Assembly (NCBI GenBank): GCA_029168955.1
Contig: JAPDOI010000134.1
Coordinates: 1,240,001-1,304,000 of the forward strand
Direction: 5' to 3'
Length of the DNA: 64,000 nucleotides
Source of the DNA: Aplectana chamaeleonis
Taxonomy: Eukaryota > Nematoda > Chromadorea > Rhabditida > Cosmocercidae
A program made the position numbers and the translations under genes. Shown here piece by piece: positions 24,101 to 62,626 of this stretch. The notes beneath the pieces were generated by a model, which did no database searches, was not told the DNA's origin, and saw nothing but the letters and a program-made list of their open reading frames with translations. The stretch's first letter is position 1, and each line of letters starts with the position of its first letter.

Positions 24101-27100
24101 GCGTAATCATATCAACGACAAGAGAAATCTACAATTCCCACCTGTATTTTCTCGATTTTCTTCCAATTCGCAAGCAACCTGGCCACATCCTGCCATTCCT
24201 TTTTCGGCACATTTTTGCACAAGTCGATAGCCCGGTTTCCATCGCGATTTCGTAGATTCTAAGCTCAAAAATTGTTCAAAAAATGATTGTGGCAGAGCAT
24301 AGACGTGCAGAATATGCTCTGCGTCTCTTCATTCCACATTGTTGCCATACACCTCAGGGTTGATTCCCATTACATTTTCTTTTTCTACATTCATTGATAT
24401 AATCTTACATATTGCCTTATAAGGATTGTTACGACTTTCTATTGATTGTATTGATTGTACAGTGCTCATATATGTATATGAATAAATGCGTTAACTAACC
24501 ATATCTATACCAGGATGACTTAGAAGCAGCTCAACAAGGTAGGCATTTCCATTCAAGGCAGCGAAGTGCAACGCCGTAGCTCCGCCCTTGTTCTGGGCAT
24601 TTACCTGAAAATTTTCAGATTATGTCTTTACAACATTCAAGTTAAAGACATCGTACGCTCAGAGAGCCTTCTATTATTTTTTAAGGCTTTTTTTGTAGAT
24701 TGACCTCTATAGTGAAGGAAAGTGTCGGAAGGAACCCTAAAAACCTTCATTAGTAACGGAAAGTCTTACTGAACACATTATGAGATTGAATTTATATTTC
24801 CCTCCAAAATCGTTTTTGGCGTTTTTCCACATTTCTAGACCTCACCACCGTCATTTTCGAAGTTTTTCTGCATGTGGAGTATATGCCATAACTGTTATCA
24901 TGTTGTATGACGGTCGCACCAACATTCTACGAGAAAGTGGTAGATGACTGGTGAGAACCGGCGGCGGATCCTCACATTAACCAGGTTGTTCAATGAGTTC
25001 TCTCGTTCGATAAGAAAAACACAATTTTATGGTTTAAAATACACTTCATTATTCAGTATAATCTCCCTGAACATTAATACACTTAAAAAAACCAAAAAAA
25101 ATCCAAAAAAAATTCAAGCTCATCCAGAGTGATGAATCGACGCACAAAATCCACTTTATCCTTTTTGAAACGTTCTAAATGTTGCTGAGAAAGTCGCATT
25201 CGAATGTGTTTTTGTTCCTTTGTTAGCGAATGCGGCACCCATTGTGCACACAGCTTTCTAAAACCCAAAATTTCATTAAAGATATGGCTCACTCTGCCTA
25301 ATGAGAGCCTCTACTAAATCTCTCTCAGTCAATCGACGATCTTTCAAAACCATATCCTGTATTTTGGCTGTGATTTCTGGTGTTGATGCGCTTTTTGGAC
25401 GTCCTTCACGTGGATCGTCTTCAAGGCTTGTACGACCACGTTTAAAGGCTGTGGTCACCATGAAAAACGTTATAGAAAAAACTACAAAAATCAGTTCAGA
25501 TCAAAAACAACTGAAAAACTATGAAGGTAGAACGGTGAAAACGGGCTAGAATTAGAGTTTCTAGGGCCCAAAGAAGCTTATTCGTGCACACGTGCACAGC
25601 GATGACGAAAAAGATTGCCGTCTCATGCCGAGCAGTCAAAAATCATCGACATTCACAGGACGAAATAAATGCAAATTTAACGAATAAAAACAGTTGAATA
25701 ATGAAAGCATCACTTCAGTCAATGTTTTTGACTAGATGTGTACATAAATCCAAAGCTTCATTGATTGAAATTCAATTTCAAGCCAGCTGATGTTCTTGAT
25801 ATAAGAGGTCATCGATGCCGAAGATGTGGAGAGGGCTCGTCCACCATCAAAAGACAAGAAAGTTCAGGCTTCAAATTTGGCCCAAAACAGTGGTTTTTTC
25901 GCGATTTTTTCTTATAGGTCCTACTACTCGAGACCCAGAAAAGGGTTAGGAGAAAAAATACGACAAGCATATTTAATCGCGACCACTGCCTTTAAATTCA
26001 GCAACCCATCTTTCTACTGTTCTAATTGTAGGTGAACAATCATTATAGACATTTACCATTCGTTCGTGAATTTCTTTTAGTGCTGCACCTTCCAAAAATA
26101 GGAATCTTATCACTGCACGTATTCAATTTTTTTCCATCGCTGTTCCACAGCGACACTAAATGGCTTGTAAACAAAGAGTGAATTGACAGACTGAAATGAA
26201 ACTTCACATGCGTTCATATGAAGAGTGTACTATCAAAACAAAAATTTTCTGGGCTAGTTGCAACGCCCTCTCTTAGCGAACGACAAAACATATTGAACAG
26301 CCTGGTAACTCCTTCCAGCCTCATAACCCTACGCTTCTGACGCGCCGAAGTTCACCGGTGTGCTCTACCGGGCTCATTCATGTAATTGAGACTGAGAAGT
26401 GGAAATTGTTCTCCAGGGGCGGCATGCATGAACGCAGCGGGCGGTGTCAGGGAGCCGCTCCGCGTGCCATGCGCGCAGCGTCGAGCAACGGGGCGGTCCC
26501 GAAAATCAGGCACGTCAATACACGCCACGAAATTCGTGGCCGCCCCGTTGCTCGACGCTGAGCGCATGGCACGCGGAGCGGCTCCCTGACACCGTTCGCT
26601 GCGTTCATGCACGCCGCCCCAGCACGAACGATGACTTTAAGGCTAATTTAACGTTCTCTTGACTTGCATAATTTTGTGCTGGCGAAATCATGCAGAAGTG
26701 ACCTAAATATTGAAAGTCCCGATCTTGATTAATTTCAAAACTTACTATTTCGAGTTTCAACTACGTAATTAAAGCTTAAACGTCTTTTATTGCTCTATGA
26801 ATCATATTGCAAATTTTGTGGGTCAGGGTAAGAAATCGCATGCACTTTTCAGCACTGCGCCTTCAATGAATCATACACCGACATTGATTCGCCGACGCCC
26901 AGCTTAGCCATTCGTGTTCTTGCCTCGAAACTGAAACCTTCCCCTATTTGATCCTGCTATTACTGCCCGTACGATATGCCTTGTCCACTGAAAACTGGAG
27001 AACTTATTCTTCGAACTGAATTCCCGGAAGAACCCTATCCACGAACCTGTTCATTCAAACTGAATCTGGATGATGCCCGTATTGGAATTCGCTACTATAA

Positions 27101-30100
27101 TAAACACGATCTGTTTGAAAAGCTGAAGAAAGAAACTGCTAAAATGGGAATCCCGCTCAGATCCATGTACTGGATCGACCAGCACATCGAACCTGTCCAC
27201 CTTACTAACGCTGATGCCGTAAGGGACGCCGCACGTGCTCCACGAACATTATTTGTCAGAGATTTCGATAATGTTCGGGAGAATCCGACACCGTCACGTC
27301 ATCGAAAAGGAAAAGCCAGAAGTCGTGCCTCTTCCTACAGCAGTGATTCTAGTTCGAGTGATAGTTGCAGGAATCAGAGACATCCGAGGGATTTTTCTCC
27401 ACCTTGCTACCCAACGATGTACCCTGGCCACGGATTTTGTCCATGCTTTTGCCATGGACCTGTACCTGGTTACGGCCATCATGGTCCCTATTATTACTGA
27501 AGTTTTCGTGAGTAAATTTTTTGTGTCCTTTACAGGTTTCATGTTCTTTTCCATTGTGCGAGTAAAAATCAATAAAGGTGTTACTAGCTCAAGTTTTTTC
27601 GGGAAGGTTACATCCGATATTTAAATTCTTAGCCATTTAATTACTTGGCAATCGCGGTTTTTCTTGGAAGGGAATGCGTCTTGTGAGACCCACTGTATGT
27701 GTGTACCATTATCCATACTGCGAATTTTCACGCCGTGATGCTACGGATGCTACGGATAATCTAAGCAAAAGTCACTCTTAGCCCAGGAGTTCACCGTTGA
27801 TTAATCCGGTCCCCAAGGTGGTTTTGCGCTGAACACAAAGAAATTCACGCCTCATATACCGTCGGCATGGATCATTAGGATCAAAGCCTCATTAGGATCC
27901 ATACCGCAGCAGCTTTTTGACCGGAAGATTTTGCTGCAGTGTCCCTGGCCTTGACATCGCCGCGATAGTACCGCAGCGGCCCCGCGTTAGAGCCGCGCCG
28001 GCTTTGCGAGGTTGCAGCAGTGAACGTGCGTGGAGTACGATGTACTGTCCTGTGCGGTAAAACGAAATAGTCGCTGGTTCAATTACCCGAGTTTGAGGTA
28101 CATTCCGTATTTCCATGAGCGCAGAAATGGCGGTAGCTTCTATCTTTATCAGACAGAGGACGTACCAACCGCAGGCGCGTATTTTTGTACTTAGGCTTTC
28201 CTAGTTGTATTATACTTCTCAATTAACTTCACATGAGGGACTCTCCCGGAGCCGCGGCGGCACTATCGCGGAGCAGTCGCGGCGATTTCTCTCAGAGTAT
28301 GAGATGCGATCTAACTTAGCACTCGCTCGCACCCTTGCCCGTGCTGATAAGTTCTTCTAGTTAAAGGCACATGAGGCTATGAATACGTAGGTCGGCACCG
28401 GTGCATGAGTCAGTAGGAAACAGCCGATACTTTAAAAGCTTCAGGGAAACTACTTCCTTAAAAATTGATAGAGAGTAAATTGCCAGGGTATGACTCGAAG
28501 AAAGACTGTTCAATTTGCTTAGAAGCTAAGATGATCGCTGTCCATACCCCACTCATACATCTGTGCTCGTGCGTGACATCAGTTATACATAGGAACCCTC
28601 ACATTGGCATTTCCACTGTTCAGAAGTGCTCTCATCGCATCTAGCCTTTCATAGAATGCCGCGTAGTGTAATGGAGTCCATGAGTCTCGATCTGCTTCCT
28701 TCGCATCCACACCCAATGACACAAGTGATCTGAAAAGGACAGTCACCCGTCAGACTTCAATTGCAGCCAGAGGCATTTATCAATGGGGAAATTCATTCTT
28801 CAAGATATAAAGCTATCTCTGCGTAAGAAAATTACAACGTTTGGGATAAATTCAGGTCTTCACAGCATGGGAATTCCGCATATGTTGTGCGCCTTAACCT
28901 AAAGAGTCGCCAAGTTTTGTTGCCTTGCGTAGGGTGCCGAACACGGATCTGCGGTCCATTTGTCGATTTTAGGAATATTGGTTTATGTCAAAACAGCTGT
29001 ATATATCATACCTATCGTAAAGTACAGTGAACCTCCCAATGTCAATGAATAAACTCCAGTGTCTTATTCTGCAATATAGAAAACCCACCAGAAGAGTTCT
29101 GAGCCGAATTCTAATTATTGCCGGAACACCATATAAAGCTTCTAATGCATTTCCCTTTTTTTCGCTCAAGCTTTGAAAACACCTATATATAACTTTTTTC
29201 AATTCAAAAGTAGGTACACTACCCGCGCTGAGTTTTGTAGAAACGGGGAGCAGTTGACAAACTTGGCAAAAAAGCGTGCGATGCAGGTAACCTTTTTGAA
29301 CGAAGACGTTTTTGGATTCTGGAAACGCTATCATATTCACAGCTCGAATTCCTACATAATAATGTGCATTGTGGACCGAAATTCCCTGAAATTGCTTTGT
29401 TTTTGAGTGAAATTGTTTTTAAGGTTGTTTCACAAAAACGTCGCGCGCGGCAAAGTGCGGCGAAACTTGAGTAGTAATAGTACTTTTCGCAACAAATGTC
29501 CGACTTTTCAGGAAGCTCCCGAGAGTGTTTAATGAAGGCTTTCGATAATTCAATCTGCGTAGATCTCTAGTTAGCCCCACTTTCATCCAATTCACGAAGA
29601 CGACACAGAGATTGCTTTTTTAGTACTCGTACAATTACTACTCAACGTTTCGCCGCACTTGGCCGCGCGCGACGTTTTTGTGAAACGACCGCAAGAACAT
29701 TTTTACTCGAAAACAAAGCGATTTTAGAGAACTTTGGTCCACAAGGCACATTATTACGTAGGAATTCAGGCTGTGAACATGATAGCGTTCTGAGAGTACG
29801 AAAACGTCTTCGTTCAGAAAAGTTACATGCATCGGACGCTTTTTTGCCAAGTTTGGCAAATGCTTCCCGTTTCTACAAAACTTAGCGCGGGTATATGTAG
29901 CTTAAGAGGGCTTATTTGAATCCTGCGTCCAAAAATGTCTATAGATAGAAATCACGTAAAAAATTTAGTCTGAAGAATGGACGGAGCTGCGACGGCAGAT
30001 CGCCGCGCGCGATCGAAACTTCGTTTGCAGGCGATGCCTCCAACACTGCACAGGCAGCCGCCTGGCCTGTTCGTCAGACTGAATCGAATAAGGAAACCTA

Positions 30101-36100: not shown

Positions 36101-39100
36101 GTGAAAGAAACGTTATTTCAGAAATTAAAATCTGCTGAGAGATTGGAAAAGTATTTATCTCAAATTGAAAACATTATTACTTGAAACAAAATTTCATGAA
36201 GATTTTGGAATTAGCTCCTTTAAAGGATCCATCTTGAAGGGCAAAAATGTTATGAGCTAAGAACAGATAGTTTTTCAAAAATCGCTTTAAAAAAATTTTC
36301 GAAAAATTTTGACTCCAAGACAGCTCAAAGGAAATTTTTCATGACCTAGGCAGATCATTTCATTAGGATAAAGGAGTTCTTAAAGGAAGTCCTCTTACGA
36401 AAAAAAATTTCAAAGTTAATGTTTAAAAACAAAAATATACTAAACGCAAGAAAAAGAGCAATAAGGAAAGGTTGAACTTTGAAGTTTCAGGTCTATGGGA
36501 GCCTTCACCATTCACCACTCAGGTATCCTAAGCAATCTTCACCTCTCGGACCGCTTTCTCCACCCCAACGAACCTATGGCTGTCGGGTAGCGATCTTCCG
36601 CTTTTGCAGGGTAACCATGAAACGTGCCGAAGCCTCTACCCCTACCCAGCACTGTCGCATTGATGAATCCGGCCCCAGCCGCTCGGGGTGGGGTACTGCA
36701 AAGTTTTACTATAGTTGCTAAGGGGATACTGACAATGCAATTCGTTTCCGCTGATGCGACCGACGCTCTCTATACTTCCCTTGTTAGAGGGACCCAAAGC
36801 TTACGCTTCCGCGAGAAAACGGGAAACTTTTTCATAGTGAACACTGTCCATAACAATCATTCTGTTCCGATTTCACTTTATAATATTCTACCCAAATCCT
36901 CGAGCGAATGGGATATAAACTGCCTTCCCTATTTTCACACACTCAGCTTTCTCTGTACCTTTTAAGATGACATGTACCATGTGACACTCCTCATTAACAA
37001 CCTCTGTTCGTAAACGTGCATAACAGAACACAGTTTATCATACGTTCATTCATTTAATCACAGACATCGTACAAAGAACGACTAAAAGAGTATCGGAGAA
37101 TAACCTGTATGAAATGACTCCAAAGCTAAATGACATCAAATAAGACATCATATTCTTGCACAACATCTACATTCAGAAGCCATGAAAACCGCCGCGACCA
37201 AGACGGCGACCAAATCCACCGCGAGATGTGAATGGGTAACCTCCGAGACGAGGATCCATGGGGAATCCATCAGGGTATCCGAACGGCTGGAAGAAAGAAG
37301 ACGGTCCAGGGAAGGGGAATGGGCCACGGTGGTGTTTGCGATGACGAAAATGACGACTTCTGGAGCGGTCTCTGGAGTGAGAGCGGTCCCTGGAGCGGGA
37401 GCGGTCTCTGGAGCGTGAGCGAGAGTGCTTGCGGGCTTTGGGGCGTTTTTTGGACACAAGTTTTCGTCCACGAGAATGACCGTGTTTCTTAGACTTGGTG
37501 CGTTTACGTTTACGCAGTAGTTTTCTGCCACGGGTTCGCGGACCTAGTTCGTCCTCACTAGAAGAGGAAGATGATGATGAGGAAGAGGAAGAAGACGACG
37601 AGGAAGAGGAGCTCTTCTCCTCCTCAAAATCGCGGACGTATAGACGAAGGGTATCGGAATATTTGGCAGCATCCAGTAGATCTCCAGCATTGCTCATGGA
37701 CACTGGCTCGCCATCGCCATCCACCCAGAAAATGTTTTCGAGCGAAACACCGAGATCTTCAGCTTTCTTCTTGAATTGCTCAAACAGATCATTCTTGTCT
37801 TTGTAGGTGACACGAAATCGAGGCGGACGATTAACGAATAGTTTGAAGGTGACAGTTTGGGGTTCAGTAGTGGGTTCGTCAGGCATAATTGCAGTGATGG
37901 CTGTCACGGGAGCGCTGCGGGGTTTATATACCCCCGCGAATGTGGTCGAGATCTTTATTTCGAAAAGGCAGGAAGGCGGAGCGTGCGAACACACGGTGGA
38001 ATGACTCACCCACAGCTGATTGTTTTCCTTACCGAGTGTTACTATTCCCGATATTCGAAACTACTATTCGAAAAGAAAGCTGTTGTTATCGGCGCATGCC
38101 TGCTGAAGGCGTTATTTTCGAAAATCCTTATCGAAAAGCGTACGTGAGCTTCTGTCCATACTGCCAATATTAGAGATTGAAGGAGCAACTTCATTGAAAT
38201 ATCAGCATACTTGATTCTTATCAGAAGGAAAAAAGTGTTACAGGATCCTGCAATGTAATCGATTGCGTTAATGGACAGATTAAGCCAAGACAAGTGCAAT
38301 GTACGCTTCAGTCAGCTGTCGCATTTCTCCCCTTTTCAGCCCTTCCTGAATTATATACAGGGTACGGCGCGAGGTGTGATACAACCCAACATTGGTCCGA
38401 CCCACCACCCAAGTCAAGCGATTTGCTCAGCCCCCCCCCCTGGGGAAAATGATGGCGACGACCGGGGGGGGAGGTCCTCATTTCGTAATTTTTTATTTTA
38501 GTGAACGATTTTTCAATTCAAGACTACATGAAGACCTAATAGTGCAATAAATAAATGTTTTCCACGGGAGCAGACAAAAACAACTGTCCTACGAAAATGG
38601 CACCAAATGTTTGTTCAATGGCTGAACGTTCATTAGTGCCTTGAGGGTACATAGCTGCGGTTTCGGGAATGAAAACCACATTCGGTAATTGGCTATTCGG
38701 ATGTGAACACGCACCCAAAGTTTCATGAACGCAGTTTTAAGCCGAACAGCGCTACATAGGGTGGGGTCCATGAAAAAATGTGAAAGTCGGGAATTGTGAA
38801 ATACTTACAAGTTTTTATCGAGTTTTGAATTAGGGAATTTCGCGTTGCTAGAACGTGCGGAAAACCTAGTCACGGACCCATTTAATCAATTTCATTCTTT
38901 TACCCGGTTTAAACGGTCTTTGAAGACCCATTTTAGGTGTGATACAATCGATTGTATCACACCTAAAATGGGTCTTCAAAGACCGTTTTCAACCGGGTAA
39001 AAGAATGAAATTGATTAAATGGGTCCGTGACTAGGTTTTCCGCACGTTCTAGCAACGCGAAATTCCCTAATTCAAAACTCGATAAAAACTAAGTATTTCA

Positions 39101-42100
39101 CAATTCCCGACTTTCACATTTTTTCATGGACCCCACCCTATGTAGCGCTGTTCGGCTTGAAGCTGCGTCCATGAAATTTCGGGAGCGTTTTCATTTCCGG
39201 ATAGCCAATTACAAAATGTGGTTTTGATGCCTGAAACAGCACCTACGTGCCTTCAGGGCATGAAAACAGACTCCGCCCACCCTATGTAGCGCTGTTCGGA
39301 TTGAAGCTGCATCCATGAAACTTGTGGTGCGTTTTCACTTCCGGATAGCCAATTACTAAATGTGATTTTGATGCCTGAAACCGCACGTACACATGTGCCC
39401 TCAGGGCATGAAAACAGACTCCGCCAACCCTATGTAGCTCTGTTCGGATACAAGCTGCATCCATGAAAGTTTGGAAGCGTTTTCGCAAGCGGACATTCGT
39501 ACTCAAAATGTGAGTTCCGCGCCCGCAACCGCTCCTATGTGCCCTGAGGGCGTAAAAATCGAAAGGCGATTTCATTAAGGAAATTGTCGGAGATATTACA
39601 GTGAACAATGCTCTTTTGTGACAGTCAGCTATCCATCGTTTTACAGTTTTGCGAAATTTTTACCTCTAACGGGATCGAACCTGTGAATTCTAAATTGCCT
39701 AAGAATGCATCTTAGATTACGAGACTTCAGAAAATCTGTGTCATTTCGTTGACAGGATAGTCCGCTTGTAATGACCTCCTTGAGAGCGAGTACTCAACAC
39801 CACTGCTGCTGACATATCTAGCAGCCCTTTGGTGACACACTTTACCTGGCCATGACTCCTCCTCCATGTCAGAGTCATTAAAGGCACAGTATACCCTCAG
39901 GTATGAATTTTGAAATTTTCATATAATTGTGTAGAAGACCCCTTCTGTATAACACGTGCCAAATGCGAGATCTCAATTCCTCCAAATAAGCGAGATATAA
40001 GCGACCACCACAGGCCCGACCCCCTTCGCTCACCACCACAGGCCCGACCCCCTTCCGGATTTTCGACCTCGATATCGACTGGATGGATGGATGAATTCTT
40101 AACCAATCACTGTTCTTCAGTCCATTGCCGGGCTGTCTCCTTATTCTGGCTCGCTCTCGTACAACGCTTGCGAATGAAGAGAAATACAGGCCTGAGACAA
40201 CTCGTCCACCAATTTTTCACCCTCAGAATCTTGGCATCTTTGAAGAGCCACAACTTTGTTCAAAGGAGGTCTTGGACAATTTCAGAGATACCACTGTGAT
40301 CAGCGAGTGACTCTCTCCAAGATAAGCATGAAATCTAAAAATTAATTTTTTGGGTGTCCTGTGCCTTTAACGATGGCCGTACTACCGTTGTCTATTGTCT
40401 TGCATGCTTCATCACCAACGAATTTGTAAGCTCTTCTTGTGTGTTCCTGCCACATTTTCACATCCCCATTTCATAACTTGCCTCATTTGTTTTTTTTTCG
40501 CAAATGTTTCTCACTATTCGGTTTCTTTTTGATCTCCTGTCTCATTTTGCTCTCTCAGTATAATCTCCAGTTTTAATTTGATCTCTTATTGTGATCTCAT
40601 TTCGCCGTCATTTTTTATACTAACGGTATGGTTCTCAACCCCCCCCCTCCGGCCTGGTAGAAGTCCATCTTGTTTCTTGGTTGACCGAAGGTCCTACCCC
40701 CATCCCACCGGATGTCGATGGGTCCGACCTCCCCTCTGTGATACATCACACCTCACGCCGAACCCTGATTACATATCTACAGGGTGCGTATTGTACGTGG
40801 GCCGGATCAAATGATGGAGTGATGAAATCATAATACGATTCTGGAGCAATCAAAAAGTCGGTCATTTGAAAAGTGCGATTTTCGACTTATTCGGAAATTC
40901 AATCTTTTGAAAAGAATAATTTTTGACTTATTCGGAAAGTTTGTCTCTCTCAATAGTTCCTAGTTTCGGGCAAAGATGGTAGAAATTGGGCGGTGGTCGG
41001 AATGTGTCCAAACCGCGAAAAGAGAAGAGCGGGGGGTGGGGCAGCGTGGTCCGCGTTTGGAGGGTACTACGGCTACCGCCAATCACATCCCTTCGCTCTT
41101 CTCCTGCCCCTTTCGAGGTTTTTGGAGCGAGCGGTGGTGAATGTACTGAAGCCGAAGAACATGATTTCGAACACCGCTTGTAATTCTGTGCTTGAACTCA
41201 TCGTCCTTGATCTAGTGGAGCTTTTAGTCTCTGTAATAGGTTGATTAGATGATGTACAAGTGAAATGAGAATTTCGCAGGAAATTCACATGAAAATGCTT
41301 ACAAACACTGAACTCCTTCCAACACAACCTCTAACGTGCAATCTTTTACTGACCTTATAGCAGGAATAGGAGGAGGCAGCAGGGATAGCACCGCTAAGCA
41401 ATAAATAATCAAGGTTCGGCGGTCCATTGACTTCAACTAAAAACACTTTAAACCCTTAGGAGACCCTGCGCTACACGGCGAATCGATTCAGTGAGCTTTT
41501 AAACTGGATTTCTACCGGCGCGAATGATTGTGGAAAAAACGGATTCAAGACGCTCAATATCTACCGCTTATGCAAGTTGTTTTATGTATGGGTACTCCAG
41601 CAATAATTGGGAGGAATGTGTTTTTTTTTAGTTGAAATAAAAAAATTGATTTCATGGGGTGTGTGAGCAGTTTGGACACGCCGTCTCTTGAAGGCACAGT
41701 ACACCCTCAGATGTGAAATTTGAGATTCTCGTGTAATTGTAAAGAAGACCCCTCCTGTATAACACGTGTCAAATTCGAGATCTCAATTCTTCCAAATAAG
41801 CGAAATATTAGCGACCACCACGGGCCCGACCCCCTCCAGCCACCACCACAGGCCCGGCCCCCTTTCAGATTTTCGATCTTAATAGCGGATAGATGGATGG
41901 ATGATTTTCAACTAAGTCGTCTTTCCTCACTCCTTTTCCGAACTAACTTCTGGTCCTGTGTTGCTCTGGTGCCGCGACTGCGAATCAAGAGAAATACAGA
42001 CTTGAGACAACTGGTCCACAAAAATTTTGTCCTCAAAATACAGGCATTTTCAAGAAACCATATCTCCGTTCGTAAGAAGTCTTGGACAATTTCACAGATA

Positions 42101-45100
42101 CCATTGTGATCAGAGTGCAGCCCTCTCCAAGTTAAGGATAAAACTTAAATAATAATTTTCTGGGTGTCCTGTGCCTTTAAAGGCATTGCAGACGTTAAAA
42201 AATCGTATTTCGATGTTTTTCAGGGGGTAAGTCTACTTATAGTCAGTAAAGGTTAATAGGAGAGAGTCACCTTAGATAACTCACATGCCGAAGAATAACT
42301 GTCTAAAGAAAGCTCTGAAAAATTCAATTAAGTCGGTTTGGTGTGTTTCGGGAGACTGCAGACAAAGCGGCAAACCTGACGCCTAGAATGGTTTTGCATT
42401 TTAAAAGTCTTAGATTAGTTAATTTGTTTACTGTTTCTCGTACCGAAAACTCTTCTTTAAAGGCAGTGTTCACGATATGAATCGTTTTTCTGTTTTCCGC
42501 CTATCTTGAAAACGGTCCCATGCTGATTCCAATGATGTCTCTGAAATCGTGCAACACCTTCTGGGAACGGAGTTATGGTCCCTCAAAATTTGAGCTAAGG
42601 AAACATGGTGGACGATTTGTCCGAGGCTTGTAACTTCCGTCTTTTGCAGCCGATGTATGCGAGCTGGCCTGAGGAAAGAGAGAAGTTGAGATTGAAGGGA
42701 AGAACGGGGCTATTGATCGGAAACCATCGCTCATCTCCCGATCTCGAGCATTCATTTGTTCACGTCGGTGGGCGTGTGTTGCGCTTTTGGGGTTTGCCTT
42801 GCGCTCGAAGTGGCAACTTCGCGCTCTTTTGGAGCTCTTCCTGGCTCGTTTTCATGCGTTCTTTCGACGTCAGCGTTACAGTGTGCCCCTCCACTACCCA
42901 TTCCTAGTGGGAACTGAAACACATTTTTTATCGTGAACACTGCCTTTAAAATCGAGACGGGCCGGTGCGGGGACGTTTGAACCTTTCGCGATAAAGAATA
43001 TTCGAAAATTCGGTGCCTGTTCCTCTAGTGAGACGAACGCAGGACAATTGTTACGTGACGTGGGCGGGATGATCCAGTGAGTTGGCTTATCCACGAGAAT
43101 TTCACATACTTCTTAGCTGTTTTTTGCCGTACATCCGTTATTACCCTTCTAAGAGGGACTAGAGCTTGAGTTTTTTTTTGCCAAAAAACGGCGAATTTTT
43201 CAATTGTGAACAATGCCTTCAATGGGGTGGGTGAGCAGGGTGGACATGAGGTCTCTTAAAGGCAGTGTTCACGATAAAAAATGTGTTTCAGTTTCCACTA
43301 GGAATGGGAAGTGGAGGAGCACACTTTAATGTTGACGTCGAAAGAACGCAGGAAAACGAGCCAGGAGAAGCTCCTAAAGAGCCCAAAGTTGCCATTTTGA
43401 GCGCAAGGCAAACCCCAAATGCGCAACACACGCCCACCGACGCGAACAAATGAATTCTCAAGATCGTGAGATGAGCGATGATTTCCAATCATTAGCCCCG
43501 TTCTTCCCTTCATTCTCAACTTCTATATTCACTCAGGTCAGCTCGGATACATCGGCTGCAAAAGACGGAAGTTTCAAGCCTCGGACAACTCGTCTAACAT
43601 GTTTCCTCAGCTCAATTTTTGAGGGACCATAACTCCGTTCCCGGAAGGTCTTGTACGATTTCAGAGACATTATTGGAATCAGCATGGGGCCGTTTTCAAG
43701 ATATTAGGGAGAACAGAAAAAACTATTTCTATCGCGAACACTGCCTCTAAAAGTTGACGAGCGCTGAAATTGCCCAACAGCCTGTTTCAGGGCGGTGCTC
43801 TGTAGCTCCGTTTCAATCCGAGATACTAGGCTGCATATGTGACTGTCTAACCATCATGAATAGGTCTAATTATTGACAAGATACAAAATTTTACATTAGT
43901 GTAAGGGGATGAAAGGAACTGCTGAGCTATTTGGAAACAGAGTACTTTAACTCCCCTGACTTTAACTCTATTTCTGTTCGTTGTCCTCTTAGAACAAAAC
44001 ACACATCGAATGATAGAAATAGGCGATGAAAATTGGAAGAAAAATCGAACAGCGTCGACAAGCATGTACCTTTAGGCGACGCTGGAGCACACATCAGAAC
44101 TGTACCGGGAGCGATTCTGGCGCTCGACGAGGGCCCATCACCATCCCATAGTGGTATAGCGACTGCTCTACGGAATGTGGATCTGAAAACCTATTGCACT
44201 GGAGTCGGAAAGCGTCAAGCGACTTGAACAGCAAATTAATCCTGTACGCTCGACTGGATGCTTTGAATCTATCCAAACACCATATTTCAGTTCTTAGGCC
44301 CACTCAAACTCATATATGGGGAGCCGTTCTCAAAAGCAGAGAGTAACAGCTTTTCCTAAAGTGATTATTGAGACACACACTGTGGTTTCGTCTCGCATCA
44401 AGTTTGTAGACAGACACTTTGAAGTCCTTATGTTGATCACCCTAAGGTGATTCACATGTAAAACGGAGAGAAAAAACCGTGCATGTTCCCCAAAAACCGT
44501 TCCGCTGTAGCCCTCCAATGGACCCTGAACTGGAGTTCAACAAATAAAGAGATAAATTGCTCACCTAGTTTTCGTTGCCAACTCGCTGAGCACAGAATCC
44601 GCAAGGCTAATCGAACAATCGGTGACTCGAAAGAATGGCAGTTTCACGACCGTGCTCGCCACTTTATGTCCTCCAACTGTAGTACGCTTCTTCACCGGGT
44701 ACGGCTGAAATGAAAAATTTTTAAGGGTTTCCGGACTACCTGATTCCATCCAAATACGGGGATGTCGCATGGCCGCTCATATCGCCGCGTGTATAGGGGT
44801 CTGCAGAGTTGCAGCGACCGGCGAGTGGCCGTCGAGCGTCAACCTGCACGCGGCGACAAAAAATATTTGCGAACATTACCGTCGCAGCGTCGGTTGCCAC
44901 TTGCTGGCAGTGACGCAGGGCTGTCACGGCGTCCAAACACTCAGCGGTACCTCCTCGTTGCCCTCCATGCCGCGTCGGTCGCCATCGCCACCAAACGGAA
45001 TCAATATTGCATCACCCAACGCTGTTTGTCGCTGCGAGCAGCACCGCGATTTCAACTCTGCAGCCCCCTCCCAACGGCGAGCCTCTAATCGGATCCTAAG

Positions 45101-51379: not shown

Positions 51380-51465
51380 ACTGCAATTTGGCGCCGAATA
51401 CCCTACGTCTTGACAAATCTTTTGTCAAGACGTAGGGTATTCGGCGCCAAATTGCAGTTTCCACA
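51380..51465. repeat. Perfect short palindrome
   Basis: CTGCAATTTGGCGCCGAATAC and its inverse meet at a TGACAAATCTTTTGTCA centre near 51418, with arms of about 38 bases and no mismatch seen. Confidence 0.85.
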
Positions 51466-52846: not shown

Positions 52847-52889
52847 GTCGCCCTTATCAAATATTAACTGGCTGGTGGCGTTCCACTAA

Positions 52890-54216: not shown

Positions 54217-54665
54217 TACCGCTCGTAGGATTTGGTCGGAAAGCGAAAAAGGTCGGGTTTTCGCGTCTTTTTAGCATAACTCGCTTCAAAGCCAACTTTG
54301 AGCGAAACTGGGGAAATACTTATATTCCTGGCGGACAGGGCTATCGAGTGGTATAACCATTGTCGGGGTTCATAGAGATCCATGAAAGTTTCGCAGTCAA
54401 CGAACTAGCTCTTATATATGGTAGGCACAGAGTAGCGCCCGATCCTCCACGGTACCGTAATTACAATCCTGACTGGTTACGGAATTTCTACAGTTCTCGA
54501 CGTAACCACCACGAAGGCTAAACCACTGGGTGACCCCAACGCCAGAATCATGAATATCACCCTAGTTTCGCCCAATGTTAACTTTGAACCGAGTTATACG
54601 AAAGAGACGAAAAAGACGCAAAACCCCGACCTCCCTCGCTCTCTGACGAAATCCTAAGAGCGGTC
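54217..54665. repeat. Foldback element family G, copy 2
   Basis: The ends TACCGCTCGTAGGATTTGGTC and inverted GACGAAATCCTAAGAGCGGT match copy 1 at its right end. The inner part GAATCATGAATATCACCCTAG also matches. Confidence 0.7.
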
Positions 54666-55049
54666 ATGCAGAGATAACTTTTTTTACGATGTAGCGCGAA
54701 ATGGCTTGATAACACCTGGACGTGTTTAGCACGGCGTTTGCGGTGATCCACGGCAAGCCATTTTAGCACGGCACGCAGGTCGATCACAAGTGGGAACATT
54801 AAGCACGGCATGCCGGGCAACCCTGGGCAAGCGCTGTTAATTAAAACACGCAGGCAAAATCATGGCAGCCTGATTCAGCATTGCGAACCGCAGCAAGCCC
54901 ATTTGGCGCAGCATGCAAGACGAACCCGACGATTGATTTAGCATGTATTCAGGGCGATCCAGAATGGGTGAATTTTCAGATTACGCTTTATACATTGCCA
55001 GACATTTCACTCATCAGACAAGACTATCAAAGCACGGTGAGCTCGTCCG

Positions 55050-55310
55050 AGTCGACTTCAAGGCAGCTCAGGCAATTCTCTGGTCCAAGCCGTCTGGAAG
55101 TTCGACTCGTCCTCCCAATCTTCGGGTTTGCTTCTGGTGCTGGCCGGGCCACTGCTGTTGCCTTCTGGGCAACTGCTGTTGCAGCCCGGGCATCTCCAGT
55201 TTGACTGGATAGCAATAGCAGTGGCCCGGAGATTGGGAGAATGACACGAACAGTCAGACGACTCCAAATCCTGCTCGGTGCGCTCGAGACCGAGAAACGC
55301 CTGAAGCCTA
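55050..55310. repeat. Hairpin repeat family E, copy 4
   Basis: Contains GGCCGGGCCACTGCTGTTGC and, inverted, GCAATAGCAGTGGCCCGGAG, with flanking TCGGGTTTGCTTCTGGTGCT. The arms are about 110 bases. Confidence 0.7.
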
Positions 55311-56540
55311 GTTTTGACTGCAGGTGGTCGCTGCGGCCATGCGAAGGACAACTGTTCCTTTTTCATCGCGAGTAACGGAAAGCCGCTCCAATTGTGATCG
55401 CTTCGTGGCAAACGTCCTACATCGCTGGGTCGCGGCGACGAAATCCTATGTTTTATTGCATCGCTGCTTGAAGAACGATTCTCAATGGTCACTGCCGTCG
55501 CTCCATTGCGGCCGAAATGGCAGCCATGGAGCGATTGCCAGCGAATGACACGTTTCGTCGAGTGAACGTTGACCCTTTCTTGCAAGGTCAGTGTTTACGG
55601 GTTGAAAAGTGTTATTGATAACTACCAGCCATTAATTTCACTGATCGATAGAATTTCTTCGATCATCCGTGAGGTTATGCACTATGAACAGAATCGCTGC
55701 CGCTGCTACATCGCTGCAGCAGCGGGTGTGAAATCGCCGCGATGAAAAACAGCAGCGATGCAGTGAAAACTAGGCTTGAGAGTGTTCAGGTTAAGATTTT
55801 TTTTGCAGGAACGTCAGATTGAGAAGCATTCACTAGTGAAGAAGTGCTGAAAAAAGAGCGCTAAAAACGGGCCGAAAAAAGCGTGGATCAGTAGACCGAA
55901 TGGCTCGCCCCGCCCTCATTGTGGAAGAGTTGTCCATTCAAAGGAATAGTTGTCATTGATTCGAATACTCTTTATAACGAATGATTGTAAGAGCAGAAAA
56001 ACGATTCTTATCGTGAACACTGCCTTTAAAGCAATTAGAGCCGCAAAAGGCAAGACAACTCATCCTTTGTGCGTAGAGAGTCCCTATATCGACAACCACA
56101 CTCTATCGCGGATAGTGCGTCTAATATTTTCTTGGCAAATTCACCATTTGGAAGCTAAAAACTGACGAGGTTTTGCAAATATTAAGTTGGACAGGGTCCG
56201 GCATAGACGGTGTATGATGTCGCAGCATGTTTTCCCGCTATGCGCGGCTTCCTGTCAAAGGTTCACTGTAAAGGTAATCTTGTCAAGGAGCTTCAGCATT
56301 GAGGTTCCCAATTGTGGCTGATCTCTAGCGAGTTCCGCAGTGTTCCGTCAGAATATAACTAGGGTCTTACTACGACCAGATGCAGAAAGCAATACATCTA
56401 GTCGCTAAGCAGAATTCAATGGGTGCACCTTCACAAATGAAAAACGTTACAATGAGTCACCGACCGTGCACTCTGTGGCTCCTCCCATCGGCTTCACATT
56501 GACTTAGGCTGCGCCCTCTGCTCTCTCCCCATCGCCAACT

Positions 56541-57122
56541 ATGCTAGAACCTTCGCACAATGATCCCAGAAGTATCACCATCCAACTACTCAAAACCCCA
56601 TCACCGCATTTCATTCTGCCTCGGAGGAACAGTCGCATTCTGTTTGAATCATTCAAAAAGAAGACGGAGCAGTTTGGTATTCCAATGAAAAAAATTTTCT
56701 TTGTCGATGAGAAGGTAGATGAACCTATACCTGTAAACGAAGCCGGCATACTCTACAAGGTTGCGAACTCTTGTCCGCCAATACTTCTCTACGTCCAGGG
56801 TGAGGTCGAGTACAACTTCCGCCCTAAACCAACGCTCAGGGACCCTAACATTCTTGAATATTCTGCTAACTATCGTGAGGACTTCGCAGAATTTAAGCTT
56901 AATTTCAAACGCGCACCGCCTTTGCGAATCAACTTTAGGAATCGGCGCGAACTGTTTGAGGAATTTAATAGAGAAGTCAACAAACTTGGCATTCCACTCG
57001 ACAGCATCTGGGCAACAGATTCCGACGGTGAGCCGGTGGCAATCGAGGATGCTGACATCCTTTCGGATCTTCTTGATTTGTTTACGAAAACTTTGTATCT
57101 ATACGTGCGTGATTCACAATAA
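56541..57122 (+). CDS. Tandem PB1-like domain protein, intronless (family member 3)
   Basis: This 193-aa single-exon ORF has two PB1-like domains. Domain A (about 11-88) has ITIQLLK, RILFESFKKKTEQFGIPM, FFVDEKVDEPIPV and LLYVQGE. Domain B (about 116-190) has FKLNFKR, RRELFEEFNREVNKLGIPLD, ATDSDGEPVAIEDADIL and LYLYVRD. Domain B keeps a clear OPCA-like acidic motif, and domain A is degenerate. Two PB1 faces in one chain would allow polymers or bridging between partners (inference from PB1 biology). The 70 bases before the ATG resemble those before member 4. The stop codon overlaps an AATAAA hexamer (57118-57123). It lies upstream of kri-1. Confidence 0.85.
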   Translation: MLEPSHNDPRSITIQLLKTPSPHFILPRRNSRILFESFKKKTEQFGIPMKKIFFVDEKVDEPIPVNEAGILYKVANSCPPILLYVQGEVEYNFRPKPTLRDPNILEYSANYREDFAEFKLNFKRAPPLRINFRNRRELFEEFNREVNKLGIPLDSIWATDSDGEPVAIEDADILSDLLDLFTKTLYLYVRDSQ

Positions 57123-57123
57123 A
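57118..57123 (+). promoter_or_regulatory. AATAAA overlapping the stop codon of PB1-like gene 3
   Basis: The last codons read TCA CAA TAA AGG, so the TAA stop lies inside a perfect AATAAA hexamer. If it is used, the 3'UTR would be only about 10-30 bases. Confidence 0.35.
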
Positions 57124-57788
57124 GGCCAAGTTTCAATGAATGTTTTAATTTTGAAATTTCTATTTAGAGTTGGAGAGAGAAGTTCACTTGAAAAACTCAC
57201 ATACACTGGGGGGATGCGGCTAGTTTAATTCAGTGAAAGGTCTCGAGTGATCCACCGCGTGAATGACCAAATCTATGTCGCTAGCCTGAGACTGATCGAG
57301 AGCTTCGAATTCAGACAGGATAAGAAAGAATGGACATGTTCCAGAAGTTTCAGATAGTCCACTGTGGTTCCATACAGCTAGACCGTCCCTTGGCCTATTT
57401 TGTTGTTATCTCTAATGGTCTTAGTTCCACTCGTGAAATTGTTATGTTCATATGACATAAAGTATGCGTAAACCTCATGTGTGCTCGTTCTAAAGTTCAA
57501 AACATTCATCGATGCTTGGTGCTTTTACATTTGATTGCGATATTCGTTGTAATCGTTGGTGGTTAGAAGTTACGACCATTTGACTGACGGAATCGCGAAC
57601 GGGGACAAAATTCAGTGCGAAACAAGTGAGGACTACCTTTTCACACCGATATTCTTTAGTTAGGATACTTCCTTATGAAATGATTATTCATACAACCGAT
57701 TGGTCGCCGACGGGATGTGGTCCCAGTTCACAAAAATGATGGGGTTGACAGGTCTTTTGCTTTCGAAAGCATCACGATTTTCACTTAA

Positions 57789-58220
57789 AGGCAGTGTCCA
57801 CGATAAATTTCTTCCTCGGTTTTTGGCCGGAAATCAAAAGTTTAGGGTCTCATTGGAGCACTGGGGTCGAAAGAACAAATGAAAACGAGCCCGAAAGAGC
57901 TCCATACGGCTCCGAAGTCCGCTAGCCTTTCCGCTCGCGGTCGAGTTTTCCGAGGAACAGTTTGGTCCGCTTCTTTTTTAGCATTGGAGCGCGAGCGCGG
58001 CTGAGTTTTAGCATTGGGGCGCATTTGCGCACGCTGTCTACTTCAAGCCTATGCGCGCGCAACTCATCCATCGTTGAAATGTGGCTTTCAAGAAGAAGAG
58101 CTGATTTTGGATGTTTCGCAGCGTTTTTTATGATTCTTTCTTCACTGATGAAACAGTCAGACTCTAAGCCTTCGTTTTCTGGTGGAAACTCGGAAACGAT
58201 TTTTATCGTGGACACTGCCT
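57789..58220. mobile_element. MITE family B, subtype 2
   Basis: 432 bp flanked by TTAA on both sides. Termini AGGCAGTGTCCACGAT on both strands. The interior carries GCATTGGAGCGCGAGCGCGG and a matching half repeat. Confidence 0.85.
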
Positions 58221-58234
58221 TTAATTGAAGGCAG

Positions 58235-58660
58235 GGTTCTCGATTAGATAGGTTGTTGTGCTATCCTCATAGAAAGAGGATCTGGCAATCACAAAAGCGA
58301 AAATAAGTGAAAAGTTGTAGAAAAAACGCTTGGGAACAAATTTAAGACTTGGTGTCTTCCCCCCCCCCAACCATCGAGATTGCCATAGATGCCTGTTTTG
58401 TCAACTCTTGTTATGCTTCTTGAGTAATTTCTGAGCTCTTCTGGAGGCTACTGACTATGTACTTTAAGAGCAGAATAATAGGCGGACAAACAAGCATTAA
58501 TGAAAATCGCGTTAATTAGGGGGCCGGCCGACACCTGTAAATAGCCGTTATACCTTGTTTTTGAACGTTTTTCCCGTAAATTTCTGAGATTTTTTTTCAC
58601 TTTTCTCTTTTTTGTAATGATCGAATCTACATTCTTCTGGAGAGAACTTAAAAACCGTTT
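58235..58660. repeat. Dispersed repeat family L, copy 2
   Basis: Collinear with 52890-53290 (TCATAGAAAG, GGTGTCTTCCCCCCCCCC, GTAATTTCTGAG). It directly follows MITE 57789-58220. Confidence 0.75.
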
Positions 58661-59242
58661 TTATCGCGGATCTGCCTTTCAGCAAAGTGATGAAGTGAGG
58701 ATTGAAGCCGTTTGGGGGGGGGGGCACTCAAGAAAATGAAATGATTCATTTATGAAAATGAAAATTTGGGCTGATATCATATGCCTGATAGCGTTATCAG
58801 TCATTGTTTTTGTGGAGACTCCATGGAAATACTTGGACTTCTGAAAGCTGTGTCATTCATTCTCCAACTGAATCCTGAGTGCCCCCCCTAGCGGTGTCAT
58901 ACCGTGATCTCGGGTGGACTTGTTGCTTCGGAAGGCGGGATAGCTTCATTTTTGTGAACTGAGATTGCAATCCGTTGCCGACGGGGTACAACTAACTCGG
59001 CCAATCCATCTCACCCAGTTTCTTCGAGAATGCCAAATTTTGACACCAGATCTTGTTTCAAAGGCGACGTTTACCACTACCACACTTACACTTTCCGGCT
59101 AAAAAGCCTGTCGGCTTTTTTGCCGGAAAGTTAGTGGGAAGCAGACTTTTCCACTTCGACAATCATACGTCTTCGGTGACCCATTTGCAAACGCCCTTGG
59201 CCGTTTTATTATGTAGCGCTACAGAGCTCAGAATTATTTTAA
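58661..59242. other. Intergenic, G/C-run and small hairpin
   Basis: A G10 run near 58714 and a short hairpin CTTTCCGGCTAAAAAGCC / GGCTTTTTTGCCGGAAAG at 59091-59130. No gene seen. Confidence 0.45.
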
Positions 59243-59951
59243 AGGCAGTGTTCACAATCTAAATCCCTTTTCTGTTTCTTCGCCTATCTTGAAAACAGTC
59301 CCACGATGATTCCAATAGTGTCTCTGCAATCGTGCAAGACCTTCTGAGAACGGAGTTATGATCCCGCGAAAATTGAGCTGGGGAAGCACGGTGGAAGAGT
59401 TGTCCGAGGCTTTTAACTTCCGCCTTTGCAGCCGATCTGTGCAAGCTGACCTGAGTGATGAGAGAAGTTGAGAATGAAAGAACGGGGTTTTCTCCAGCTT
59501 CTCTTATCTTGCACCTTCGGCATTTTCGTATAGTAGTGTTAAACAGTTTTTCTGCTTTCGAGGTTAATATTGTGGACAGATTTTATTGGTGCGGCCTGAG
59601 CGTTTCGACGATGATCGCCGTCTTCAGAAACACATCTATCCGCCCACCGAGCAGCGTTACGTCTGCTGTTAACGAGAGACCAGTAAAGAAAGACGGGAGA
59701 CCAGGAAGAACGGGGCTTTTGATAGGAAACCATAGCTCATTTCACGACCTCGAGTGTTACATTGTTCACGTCGAGGGGCGGAAAGGGGCCGGAGTTGCCC
59801 AAAGCGGTGGGGTTTGCCCACTTTTTCAAGCCGTTTTGCGGCTCCTGGGTTGCTTTTCGTCCCGTTTCTTCGACGCTGTCCTGCTTCTGAGAGCCACGAG
59901 AAGCGTTTGTCATGGAAAATTTGAGGAGGAAGTTTATCGTGAACAGTGTCC
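59243..59951. mobile_element. MITE family B, subtype 3, expanded copy
   Basis: TTAA-flanked with termini AGGCAGTGTTCACAAT and a decayed GTGAACAGTGTCC. The outer parts match 42461 and 43260, but about 220 extra bases lie in the left half, probably a secondary insertion near 59500-59700. Confidence 0.65.
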
Positions 59952-60302
59952 TTAACAGAAGTAGTGCAAGCATCCACAAGCATGTATGAGTGTTCCGCAG
60001 GATAGGCGTAAGCAAAAATGCGTGCGATCCATAAAGGAAATTATGAGGAAAGCAGTAGTACAACAAAACAATACGGAACCTTGAACGACACCAACCAGAA
60101 CATTGCGTGGAATTAAATGCGGGCGCAGCCGCTATAAACCATACAAATTTTATTCATGCTGCTTGCGCGCATTCGGGCCTAGATCGCAGCGTTTCCTGCT
60201 AGCGCCGAAAATTGTGCGCGGTCCGAAAGGTATAAGAGGAGTATCGTGATGCGGAGAACAGTCATCTGAAAGCGCGCAACTTTTGTGATTATACCGACTG
60301 CG

Positions 60303-60743
60303 TCAATTTTGCGCGGTCATTCCTGATAATTGTCCGAGTGTCTGTAAGGTCTCGCAGTCGTCCACATTCAAATACAGAGCAGTGACGCCAAATAATTCTA
60401 TCACACAATTATATTGGGTGTGCTTGAGCGTAATCGCCCCATAAATTGAGCCGATTGCGCTCCTCTGCGCAAAGTACGGCTCTCGCAGGCGCACCAGATT
60501 TGGTTTTGAACCGGCTACGCGCGCAACTGCTTTTTCGGGATCTAAGTTTACAGTAAACGTAGGAATTAGTTCTGAATTGCATTGAAAAGAGCGCACAAAG
60601 TTGATATTATTGTCCAAAAATGGTTTAGAATGGTTTTCTAAGATATGAGAGAATGTGAAAAACCGCTTTCTCTGATAATCTCCTTTTTTTTCGACGGCGT
60701 TCACGATCCTGTTGGCACTCTTGAATTGAGCTACAAAGCTCAT
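60303..60743 (-). CDS. Unrecognised intronless ORF, 146 aa
   Basis: An ATG in good context (TAAAAATGAGC) opens a 146-codon frame with protein-like composition: basic N-terminus (RIVNAVEKKGDYQRKRFF), an ISE-type mixed centre (NFVRSFQCNSELIPTFTVNL), and a hydrophobic CVIELFGVTALYLNVDDC near the end. It has no signal peptide, no obvious transmembrane segment and no motif I recognise. An AATAAA on the same strand lies about 150 bases downstream (60149-60154). It stands between MITE remnants and the gag remnant, so it could be a small gene or a piece of a mobile element. Confidence 0.5.
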   Translation of the reverse strand: MSFVAQFKSANRIVNAVEKKGDYQRKRFFTFSHILENHSKPFLDNNINFVRSFQCNSELIPTFTVNLDPEKAVARVAGSKPNLVRLREPYFAQRSAIGSIYGAITLKHTQYNCVIELFGVTALYLNVDDCETLQTLGQLSGMTAQN

Positions 60744-61139
60744 TTTTAGACAGGAGGCTGGAAATGGATGCAGGTCGCTCCTATTCTAATTTGAACTTGA
60801 TACATTAACTTTGAAGGGTACCTCAGGATCGTGTGTTTACATACTAAAGTAGCCGTGGAGCGCGAAAACTGCTTAGGCATGCTACGGCTGCTGCGTGGGT
60901 GGATCTGCAGCTAACTAAAACAGGTCGTTGGGAGTAAGTACTGAACTTGTCAGATTTCAAACTCTTGACACGTCATCTATCGATAATCAAAATTATCGAT
61001 TTTCGCTCTCCTTGCACAAAATGCGGCGAGAAGGGGTGATTGTTGATGGGTACGGGTCTCCTCGTTTGGGATTTTTACTCATCATACATTGTCTACCGAT
61101 CTGTAGAGGGGTAGGATGGGATACGGTAGAGAGGGATAG

Positions 61140-61260
61140 TGATAAGTGATAATACACGCTATATAAACACTCGCTAGTCAATAAAAGTGTTCATCCTCAA
61201 CTGTTCGTGTTCGGCAATCGTCAACTGGCGATCAGTCTGAACTCTACGCAAGAAGGACAA
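61140..61260 (+). promoter_or_regulatory. Probable LTR/leader of the gag remnant
   Basis: TATATAA at 61160-61166, AATAAA at 61180-61185 and a TGGCGATCAGTCTG stretch about 40 bases later (primer-binding-site-like, starting TGG) precede the gag ATG. I could not find the LTR boundaries or a 3' LTR copy in the window. Confidence 0.35.
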
Positions 61261-61319
61261 GAAACCGACCCACAGCAGTCAAGGTAACCGGAGGAAAGAA
61301 GAAAGAAGAAGGATAGAAG

Positions 61320-61985
61320 ATGCAAGGCCAGGAGGATGCTAGCAAGGGCGGTATGATGGAGCAGAAGCCTCCTCAATGCTGCAACCGACGGCAGACCTCG
61401 GTGGGCAAGAGCCTAACCGAGGCCGCACGCTCGGTCCATACGTACCGGGCACGTCGTGGCACAAATGGTGGCAGCTTTTCTCAAATTTTTTAGTGTTGAG
61501 GAAGGTGGTCGTAGAGAAGGGCCAACGCCTAATCTTTCTTCAGAAAGTGGGCGGGTCCAACTACGGACTCCTAGAGTCCCTCTTGCAGGGCCGGGAGCTC
61601 GAGGAAGTTGAACTTCTCGAACTTCGGGCAACAATGGAAAAGCATTTTCAGCCTAAAAAGCTGATACTAGCAGAACGATTTGGACTAATGTCCAAATTTC
61701 AGAAACCAGGACAAGCCCTGCACGGGTATTATGCGGAGTTGCAGAAGCCGCAAATGGATGTAGCTTCAGTAACATCAAAGACCACCGCGATGCATTTGTG
61801 ACAATGGTATTCATCGATGGGTTTTCCGCGATTGAAAGAAGGAAGAGACTCTTTGAAAAAGAGGAGCTGACATCGAGAGAGGCACTGGAGCAAGCAGAGG
61901 CTTATGCGGACCCGTCCCCATCCGTGCGAGCTAGGTTTCATGTACATATCATGCTTACTACTTGTTGCCCATTATTTGTAGTAGT
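61320..61985 (+). pseudogene. Ty3/gypsy-type gag remnant, frameshifted
   Basis: A 5' ATG frame (MQGQEDASKGGMMEQKPP) passes by a shift near 61375 into a frame reading LGPYVPGTSWHKWWQLFSNF, FLQKVGGSNYGLLESLL, LRATMEKHFQPKKLILAERF and KPGQALHGYYAELQ. A second shift near 61790 leads to DAFVTMVFIDGF and REALEQAEAYA. The pattern (PG-x-S-W...F..F, F-L-x-x-V-G, HF-x-P-K, E-R-F, G-x-x-L-x-x-Y-x-A-x-L, final ALEQAEAYA helix) is that of a Ty3/gypsy-like gag capsid. No protease, reverse transcriptase or integrase follows: PB1-like gene 4 begins at once on the other strand. This is a dead, truncated copy. Confidence 0.7.
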
Positions 61986-62053
61986 TAACTGATGCATGCT
62001 GTTCGAAGCGTAGCATTAAAATACGGAAGTTTCATTTCAACCATTGAGAATTA

Positions 62054-62626
62054 TCACCATGAATCTCGAACATATAGAACCAAATATATAGACCACGATA
62101 GATCAACGCCACTCTCCAATGATCGCGGCTCGCCGTCGTAGTCCGCGAACCAAATGGAGGTAGTTGGAATGCAGAATTTGTCCAGTTTGTCTTTGAGGGG
62201 CTTTAATAGGTCGTCTCCGTTATTCTTGTAATAGATGGTGAATCGTGGTGTGCGTTCAAAGTAGAGTTTGATTAGCACCTCATTGGCGTCGTTAGCGGTG
62301 GCGTTCTCGGATTCGTCGAGATCAGCATGCGGAATATAGCGAAAGGTCCGCTCAGCATCACCTTGAACCAATACACCCTTCAATTTGCCGCCATCGTAAC
62401 CATTTGATAAGCTCACTAGAAGGTCTGCATCGTCCACAGGTATTGGTTCGTAATCATATTGAGAGTAGAATATATTATTCAGTGGAATACCGAGTTTCTC
62501 TGTCTTCATCTTGAATGATTCGAAGAGATCATGTTTTTTGTTGTAGGATATCATGAATTGTGGCGTAGGGCTCTTGAACAGCTTAGCAGTGACGCGATTA
62601 AGTTGATTGGAAGAGTCGTCTGACAT
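62054..62626 (-). CDS. Tandem PB1-like domain protein, intronless (family member 4)
   Basis: From MSDDSS (ATG 62624-62626) this is 190 aa; an upstream in-frame ATG at 62722 would add 32 residues. Domain A (about 11-90) has VTAKLFK, KKHDLFESFKMKTEKLGIPL, NNIFYSQYDYEPIPVDDADL and VLVQGD. Domain B (about 116-188) has VLIKLYFERTPRF, DDLLKPLKDKLDKFCIP, IWFADYDGEP and LVLYVRDSW. The order, spacing and VQGD/VQGE end of domain A are shared with member 3, so the two are sister genes in opposite orientation about 5 kb apart. The MSDDSS start is preferred because it aligns with the starts of members 2 and 3. Function is unknown beyond the PB1-like fold inference. Confidence 0.85.
   Translation of the reverse strand: MSDDSSNQLNRVTAKLFKSPTPQFMISYNKKHDLFESFKMKTEKLGIPLNNIFYSQYDYEPIPVDDADLLVSLSNGYDGGKLKGVLVQGDAERTFRYIPHADLDESENATANDANEVLIKLYFERTPRFTIYYKNNGDDLLKPLKDKLDKFCIPTTSIWFADYDGEPRSLESGVDLSWSIYLVLYVRDSW

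Follow-up and report, generated by a model that had tools for sequence, protein, structure and literature searches.

In a 64,000-nucleotide stretch of the genome of the nematode Aplectana chamaeleonis (contig JAPDOI010000134.1, C474 in our numbering, positions 1,240,001 to 1,304,000; hereafter the window), four open reading frames (ORFs) belong to SL4P, a family that is already known and carried in Pfam as PF17618, 'Uncharacterized Strongylid L4 protein'. Open frames, a shared domain, purifying selection, about 70 loci (56 of them within 530 kb) and a promoter site, TGANTCA, in 27 of 43 genes are direct observations. We propose that the SL4P proteins are co-regulated intracellular scaffolds of predicted PB1 fold, in which the basic face of one domain joins the acidic (OPCA) face of the next, a reading to which we give an even chance. 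New here, in a known family, are the promoter signature, the large cluster and a class of tandem proteins with unequal faces.

The window genes and their family

An earlier note, made from the sequence of the window alone, had described four ORFs sharing one domain, and all four are present and intact where it placed them, with ATG codons at 26976 (plus strand), 37886 (minus), 56541 (plus) and 62626 (minus). A profile built from their six domains, run against all six frames of the window, recovers exactly these six at 102-123 bits, the sole other match scoring -3.2 bits. The architectures are as that note gave them: two genes with a single domain and a low-complexity tail, and two genes with two domains.

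Gene 1 (26976-27500, plus strand; Pfam SL4P E-value 6.8e-17, 61.7 bits) encodes a single PB1-like domain, placed at 27003-27272 by the six-domain profile, and a 78-residue tail rich in Ser, Arg, His and Tyr, with an AATAAA at 27571-27576 on the same strand. Gene 2 (37173-37886, minus strand; E 1.6e-28, 99 bits) has one domain, matched by the profile at about 37620-37886, and a tail of 151 residues that contains 17 RS/SR dipeptides and an MDPRL box and ends in GGFHGF. Gene 3 (56541-57122, plus strand; E 7.2e-28, 96.9 bits in two stretches) is tailless, with profile matches at 56541-56810 and 56829-57119; its stop codon lies inside an AATAAA (57118-57123, plus strand). Gene 4 (62054-62626, minus strand; E 9.9e-33, 112.5 bits in two stretches), also tailless, has its first domain at about 62351-62626 and its second at about 62057-62317, the second with some five residues missing around helix 2. 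The motif pattern of the earlier note fits in part: the strand-1 lysine occurs in five of the six window domains, the exception being a glutamine in the first domain of gene 3, and D-x-D-G-E is unbroken in only three of the six.

All four genes score far above the curated SL4P cut-off (61.7-112.5 bits against 28.1), and SL4P matches occur in 8 of 8 aligned rows. The supposition that no such nematode system had been described does not stand, as a published paper (PMC6497320) already names the family 'Strongylid L4 Proteins' and assigns 24 Ancylostoma ceylanicum genes to it. Its function is uncharacterised in Pfam, and among open-licence papers, which our literature search covered, we found no function for SL4P, no paper on PF17618 and none on PB1 together with Haemonchus.

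A database search with gene 2 returned two relatives, a Nippostrongylus brasiliensis protein (labelled 'PB1 domain-containing' in UniRef) and a Cooperia protein, both from Strongyloidea and each consisting of a single domain followed by a tail that, like that of gene 2, is RS/RG-rich. No relatives were found with gene 3, nor with an alignment (A2) that contained pieces of both known relatives; because the A2 search missed both of these, it is no evidence of absence. In 14 control genomes neither SL4P nor PB1 gave a match, and this silence on both makes them uninformative about other animals. An NCBIfam scan of the aligned rows gave no sensible match; the hit of one row to a cytochrome model (E 2.2e-4) is probably an effect of composition. 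Pfam also gave single weak matches to GYD (E 0.0049) and Transformer (E 0.01), which were disregarded, and the only two matches in a sequence search of the Protein Data Bank (E 0.7) were read as chance.

Copy number, clustering and selection

The 'four-member' family of the earlier note is correct for the window and falls well short genome-wide. Our search of the 1.04-Gb assembly found 111 SL4P domains, a lower bound, which form 70 loci (41 two-domain, 29 one-domain) when same-strand matches less than 300 bp apart are joined. Of these, 56 loci (93 domains) lie within C474:1045408-1575805, about 530 kb, nine on contig C17 and five on three other contigs; the window (C474:1240001-1304000) contains 4 of the 70 loci. 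One-domain loci prevail in the left part of the cluster (12 of 15) and two-domain loci in the right part (28 of 30), and the contig ends about 9 kb beyond the last SL4P locus. From 48 of the 70 loci we read 50 ORFs (one a duplicate), taking as the start codon the nearest methionine upstream of the domain; 20 of the 23 two-domain ORFs are tailless.

In 28 of 29 pairs of more than 60% identity, which share members and hence are not independent, the ratio of nonsynonymous to synonymous substitution rates (dN/dS) in the domain regions is 0.08-0.47; the lone outlier, at 0.94, is a pair of fragments without a start. Against paralogues, the domain regions give 0.16 for gene 1, 0.08-0.19 for gene 2 (four pairs), 0.39 for gene 3 and 0.31-0.35 for gene 4 (two pairs), and these values, well below 1, support coding status. 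Close paralogues are thus under purifying selection, without the fast protein change implied when the system was called rapidly evolving, and the notable feature is the number of genes, not the rate at which the proteins change.

Predicted fold

The SL4P domain is supported by modelling as a PB1-like beta-grasp. The single-domain model has this fold with a predicted local distance difference test score (pLDDT) of 82, and its 17 best-ranked structure matches are PB1/phox entries, the best nearly 2 Z units above UBX; the fold prediction proposed earlier as a check on the PB1 assignment therefore agreed with it. The tandem model, of gene 3, has a pLDDT of 78 and a predicted template modelling score of 0.70. 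Each of its 50 listed structure matches crosses from the first domain into the second and aligns only 65-88 residues. This points to a strand swap or a modelling artefact, and domain-domain geometry was given up for this model. Elsewhere in the genome, an exon-by-exon search that scored four candidates found one place above the Pfam PB1 cut-off (G000:C1669:250898-251104, minus strand, 37.8 bits).

Predicted interaction faces, tandem classes and tails

In AtNLP7, K867 and D909/D911/E913/D922 have been modelled as the PB1 contact, and the K867A and D909A/D911A mutants are monomers (PMC8200828). The OPCA acids of gene 2, at offsets 0/2/4/13, have the AtNLP7 spacing, which also matches p40phox, and the gene 2 domain combines a strand-1 Lys, a strand-2 Arg and all four acids. 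We counted basic strand-1 residues, basic strand-2 residues and the four acids in 65 domains from the same genome. The strand-2 position is the presumed equivalent of p62 R22, picked without a computed alignment. Seven fragments and one duplicate are left out of the counts, which do include a second domain truncated by the locus end and a first domain that has no strand 1, both scored as lacking the residues concerned. Three rows first labelled as single, two from the split L025 gene and one from L016, were assigned to the tandem classes by tree position.

Among single domains, 11 of 16 have a basic strand-1 residue, 9 have both basic residues and 10 have at least three acids. The corresponding numbers are 16, 5 and 2 of 22 for first domains of tailless tandems, and 21, 17 and 6 of 21 for their second domains. 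Mean acids, out of four, are 2.81 in single domains, 1.82 in tailless first and 1.90 in tailless second domains, so that in tailless tandems the basic face, not the acid count, differs between the domains. In tailed tandems, all three first domains have at least three acids and no basic residue at either position, and all three second domains have both basic residues and none has as many as three acids. A strand-1 Lys together with all four OPCA acids was found in 5/16 single domains, 2/21 tailless second domains, 0/22 tailless first domains and 0/6 tailed-tandem domains.

In a tree of 71 domains, one branch (support 97/91) unites the first domains of tailless tandems (20, together with two rows labelled single), and a separate branch (98/97) unites their second domains (20 plus one). 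The three tailed tandems are placed elsewhere, among single-domain genes, on a branch (94/89) that is under the tool's mark; being three related genes, they represent one event. This provisionally suggests, from few columns and long branches, that the tandem form arose twice.

Tails vary in composition. Those of the gene 2 type hold 12-24 RS/SR dipeptides with a net charge of +14 to +31, likewise in Nippostrongylus and Cooperia; the single-domain tails of L005, L006 and L017 are Cys/Pro/His-rich with few RS. Short tails in L009 and L017 (C474:1047117 and C474:1125337) have a Cys-rich C-terminal CQCCPSCRCC[FY], and a YCGC-type motif occurs in several other members from the left part of the cluster. 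In the single-domain gene L021 (C474:1334001-1344000, minus strand; locus C474:1338084-1338323), the tail has been extended to 478 residues, most of them in 16-residue GPGHRSRSRSHSRGRH-type repeats, with a net charge of +117 and 132 RS/SR counts. The two domains of the tailed-tandem gene L014/L015 (C474:1099771-1100740) are read in different frames and lie about 520 bp from each other, and minus-strand fragments of L013/L014 are two copies that lack a start and have one unrelated-looking beginning in common; these are either broken copies or genes with an intron.

An AP-1-like promoter element shared by many members

Among all 6-mers, 7-mers and 7-mers with one free inner base (position 3, 4 or 5), TGANTCA is the sole word common to the 150 bp before all four window ATGs. 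It occurs as TGAATCA in gene 1 (26867-26873, plus strand, starting 109 bp before the ATG) and as TGAGTCA in gene 2 (38002-38008, minus strand, 122 bp), gene 3 (56453-56459, plus strand, 88 bp) and gene 4 (62726-62732, minus strand, 106 bp). In 200,000 random draws of four window pieces, TGANTCA never occurred in all four. In a held-out test on genes outside the window, the site lay 80-130 bp before the ATG in 23 of 39, with a chance of 1.9% per gene, and TGA[G/C]TCA, the form of the AP-1 (TRE) element, was found at -60 to -160 in 17 of the 39.

The family-wide counts cover 43 genes, seven of the 50 ORFs having been dropped (one duplicate locus, five without an ATG before the domain and one with an ATG only inside it). 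Compared with all 64 palindromes of its form, TGANTCA occurs in 27 of the 43 and the runner-up in 3. When upstream regions are grouped by mutual similarity, 12 of the 17 groups contain it; of stretches downstream of genes, 1 of 40 does. The extended site reads (A/G)TGAGTCA(T/C). This promoter site of SL4P genes is new here. That the site keeps a steady distance from the ATG speaks for genes of one exon with short leaders and, together with the open frames, indicates that the genes are probably intronless.

Other elements accompany the site. GC boxes stand before gene 2 (CTCCGCC, 37975-37981, minus strand) and gene 3 (CTCCTCC, 56479-56485, plus strand), and 28 of 43 genes have the general form CYCCDCC between -100 and -40, where the chance expectation is 2.3%; this count is not a held-out test, the pattern having been written after viewing the upstream sequences. 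Gene 2 has a TATATAAA box at 37923-37930 (minus strand, 44-42 bp before the ATG), and a TATA box lies at -42 to -46 in gene 2 and two C17 paralogues.

In Caenorhabditis elegans, TGAGTCA is bound by FOS-1, which represses kreg-1 and, together with JUN-1, activates plc-1 in the spermatheca (PMC3578760). We infer that an AP-1-type factor acts at the TGANTCA of SL4P genes.

A scaffold model and its alternatives

The SL4P domain starts at most about 40 residues after the methionine (8-21 in the window genes). Given this position and the absence of a signal peptide evident by eye, the products probably stay inside the cell. There, single-domain members with an RS/RG-rich tail, such as gene 2 (type I/II), would be polymer subunits, with tails that may recruit RNA or other proteins. 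Linking or end-capping would fall to the tandem members, whose faces are unequal: in the tailless tandems, domain 2 keeps a strong basic face and both domains have fewer acids, and in the tailed tandems the first domain is acid-only and the second basic-only. An AP-1-type basic leucine zipper factor would activate all members jointly, plausibly in the fourth larval stage, from which the family takes its name.

Several observations weigh against this scheme. The structure models were built on 8 and 6 rows, and the domain-domain arrangement is not readable from the tandem model because its listed matches mix both domains. The predicted fold apart, the PB1 assignment of the earlier note lacks profile support: Pfam PB1 (PF00564) gives gene 2 only 12.5 and 15.8 bits, below the cut-off of 23.6, it is listed for one of eight aligned rows, and the genome-wide PB1 search, which scored only four candidates, reported no SL4P locus. 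Lysine and OPCA acids on one chain, from which head-to-tail polymers had been proposed, do occur in some members and are a minority state, a basic strand-1 residue with all four acids being found in only 7 of 65 domains; gene 1 is without two of the four acids. Acid counts are alike in the first and second domains of tailless tandems, and, as related rows are not independent, the class contrasts amount to few evolutionary events. PB1 presence alone does not predict self-interaction (PMC9582228). The exact promoter site is missing in 16 of 43 genes; 10 of these 16 have a one-mismatch form in the interval, which is weak evidence because chance is 23%.

Alternatively, the SL4P proteins could be nuclear nucleic-acid-binding proteins, SR-protein-like or sperm-chromatin-like, in which the tail does the work and the PB1-like domain pairs weakly. 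The basic RS/SR tails of the gene 2 type, found also in Nippostrongylus and Cooperia, and the extreme tail of L021 fit such a role, yet most loci (41 of 70) are two-domain, nearly all two-domain ORFs read are tailless, and several single-domain tails have few RS; we regard this account as unlikely. Similarly improbable, in our view, is that the domain is a ubiquitin-like beta-grasp with a different binding partner, its likeness to PB1 being one of fold only and the Lys/acid pattern incidental. The lead of PB1/phox entries over UBX speaks against it, as do the basic strand-1 residue in all 21 second domains of tailless tandems, the OPCA spacing shared with AtNLP7 and p40phox, and faces that change class by class. 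A multicopy family that is in decay or transposon-like and has no function of its own, already disfavoured, would account for single open frames in many copies and for loci that are split or broken (L014/L015, L025, internal stops), but the low dN/dS, the clustering rather than dispersal of loci and the common promoter element at a steady distance make it very improbable.

Within the scaffold reading, a fuller version would be a lineage-specific PB1 polymer toolkit, with tailed subunits, two independent tandem classes whose faces are differently divided, linkers or caps setting filament length, one AP-1 site and about 70 loci; we advance it tentatively, as a possibility that we do not favour.

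Comparison with known systems

Gene 2 and its near paralogues resemble p62/SQSTM1 and plant NBR1 polymers in the predicted PB1 fold and in having a basic strand 1 and an acidic motif on one domain. Unlike those proteins, SL4P members have RS/RG-rich tails, tandem domains and a PB1 score under the Pfam cut-off, and neither ZZ nor UBA gave a Pfam match in the four SL4P proteins (LIR motifs were not searched for). Human NBR1 is without a basic face and is held to cap p62 filaments (PMC9582228). One-face tandem SL4P domains would act comparably to metazoan NBR1, an acid-only PB1 chain terminator, although in SL4P the face loss occurs inside two-domain proteins and differs between the two tandem classes. 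Plant NLPs share with some SL4P domains the Lys and D-x-D-x-E-x8-D arrangement of type I/II PB1, and a few peanut members are annotated with two PB1 domains (PMC7474775); NLPs, however, carry an RWP-RK DNA-binding domain, and no RWP-RK was found in a Pfam scan of the four SL4P proteins. The 24 genes designated in A. ceylanicum were obtained by another method than our roughly 70 Aplectana loci, and the one passage found on SL4P in that source (PMC6497320) mentions no PB1 fold, tandem classes or promoter element.

Other features of the window

Ten other ORFs in the window have no Pfam match at E 0.01, and Rfam models at gathering scores find nothing there. A repeat of roughly 490 bp is present in two copies, 1810 bp apart (39878-40370 and 41688-42180), each holding a 129-residue ORF; the two ORFs are 60% identical and have no Pfam match. 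A 141-residue ORF at 61376-61801 (plus strand), also without a Pfam match, looks by eye like a retrotransposon gag fragment.

Implications

The predicted PB1 fold, the classification of faces and the promoter site together provide a testable idea for the uncharacterised SL4P family, namely, that a scaffold able to form polymers was expanded in strongylid worms for a stage-specific task. If this holds, the family would be a natural experiment in how duplication splits a polymer domain with two faces among subunits, linkers and caps.
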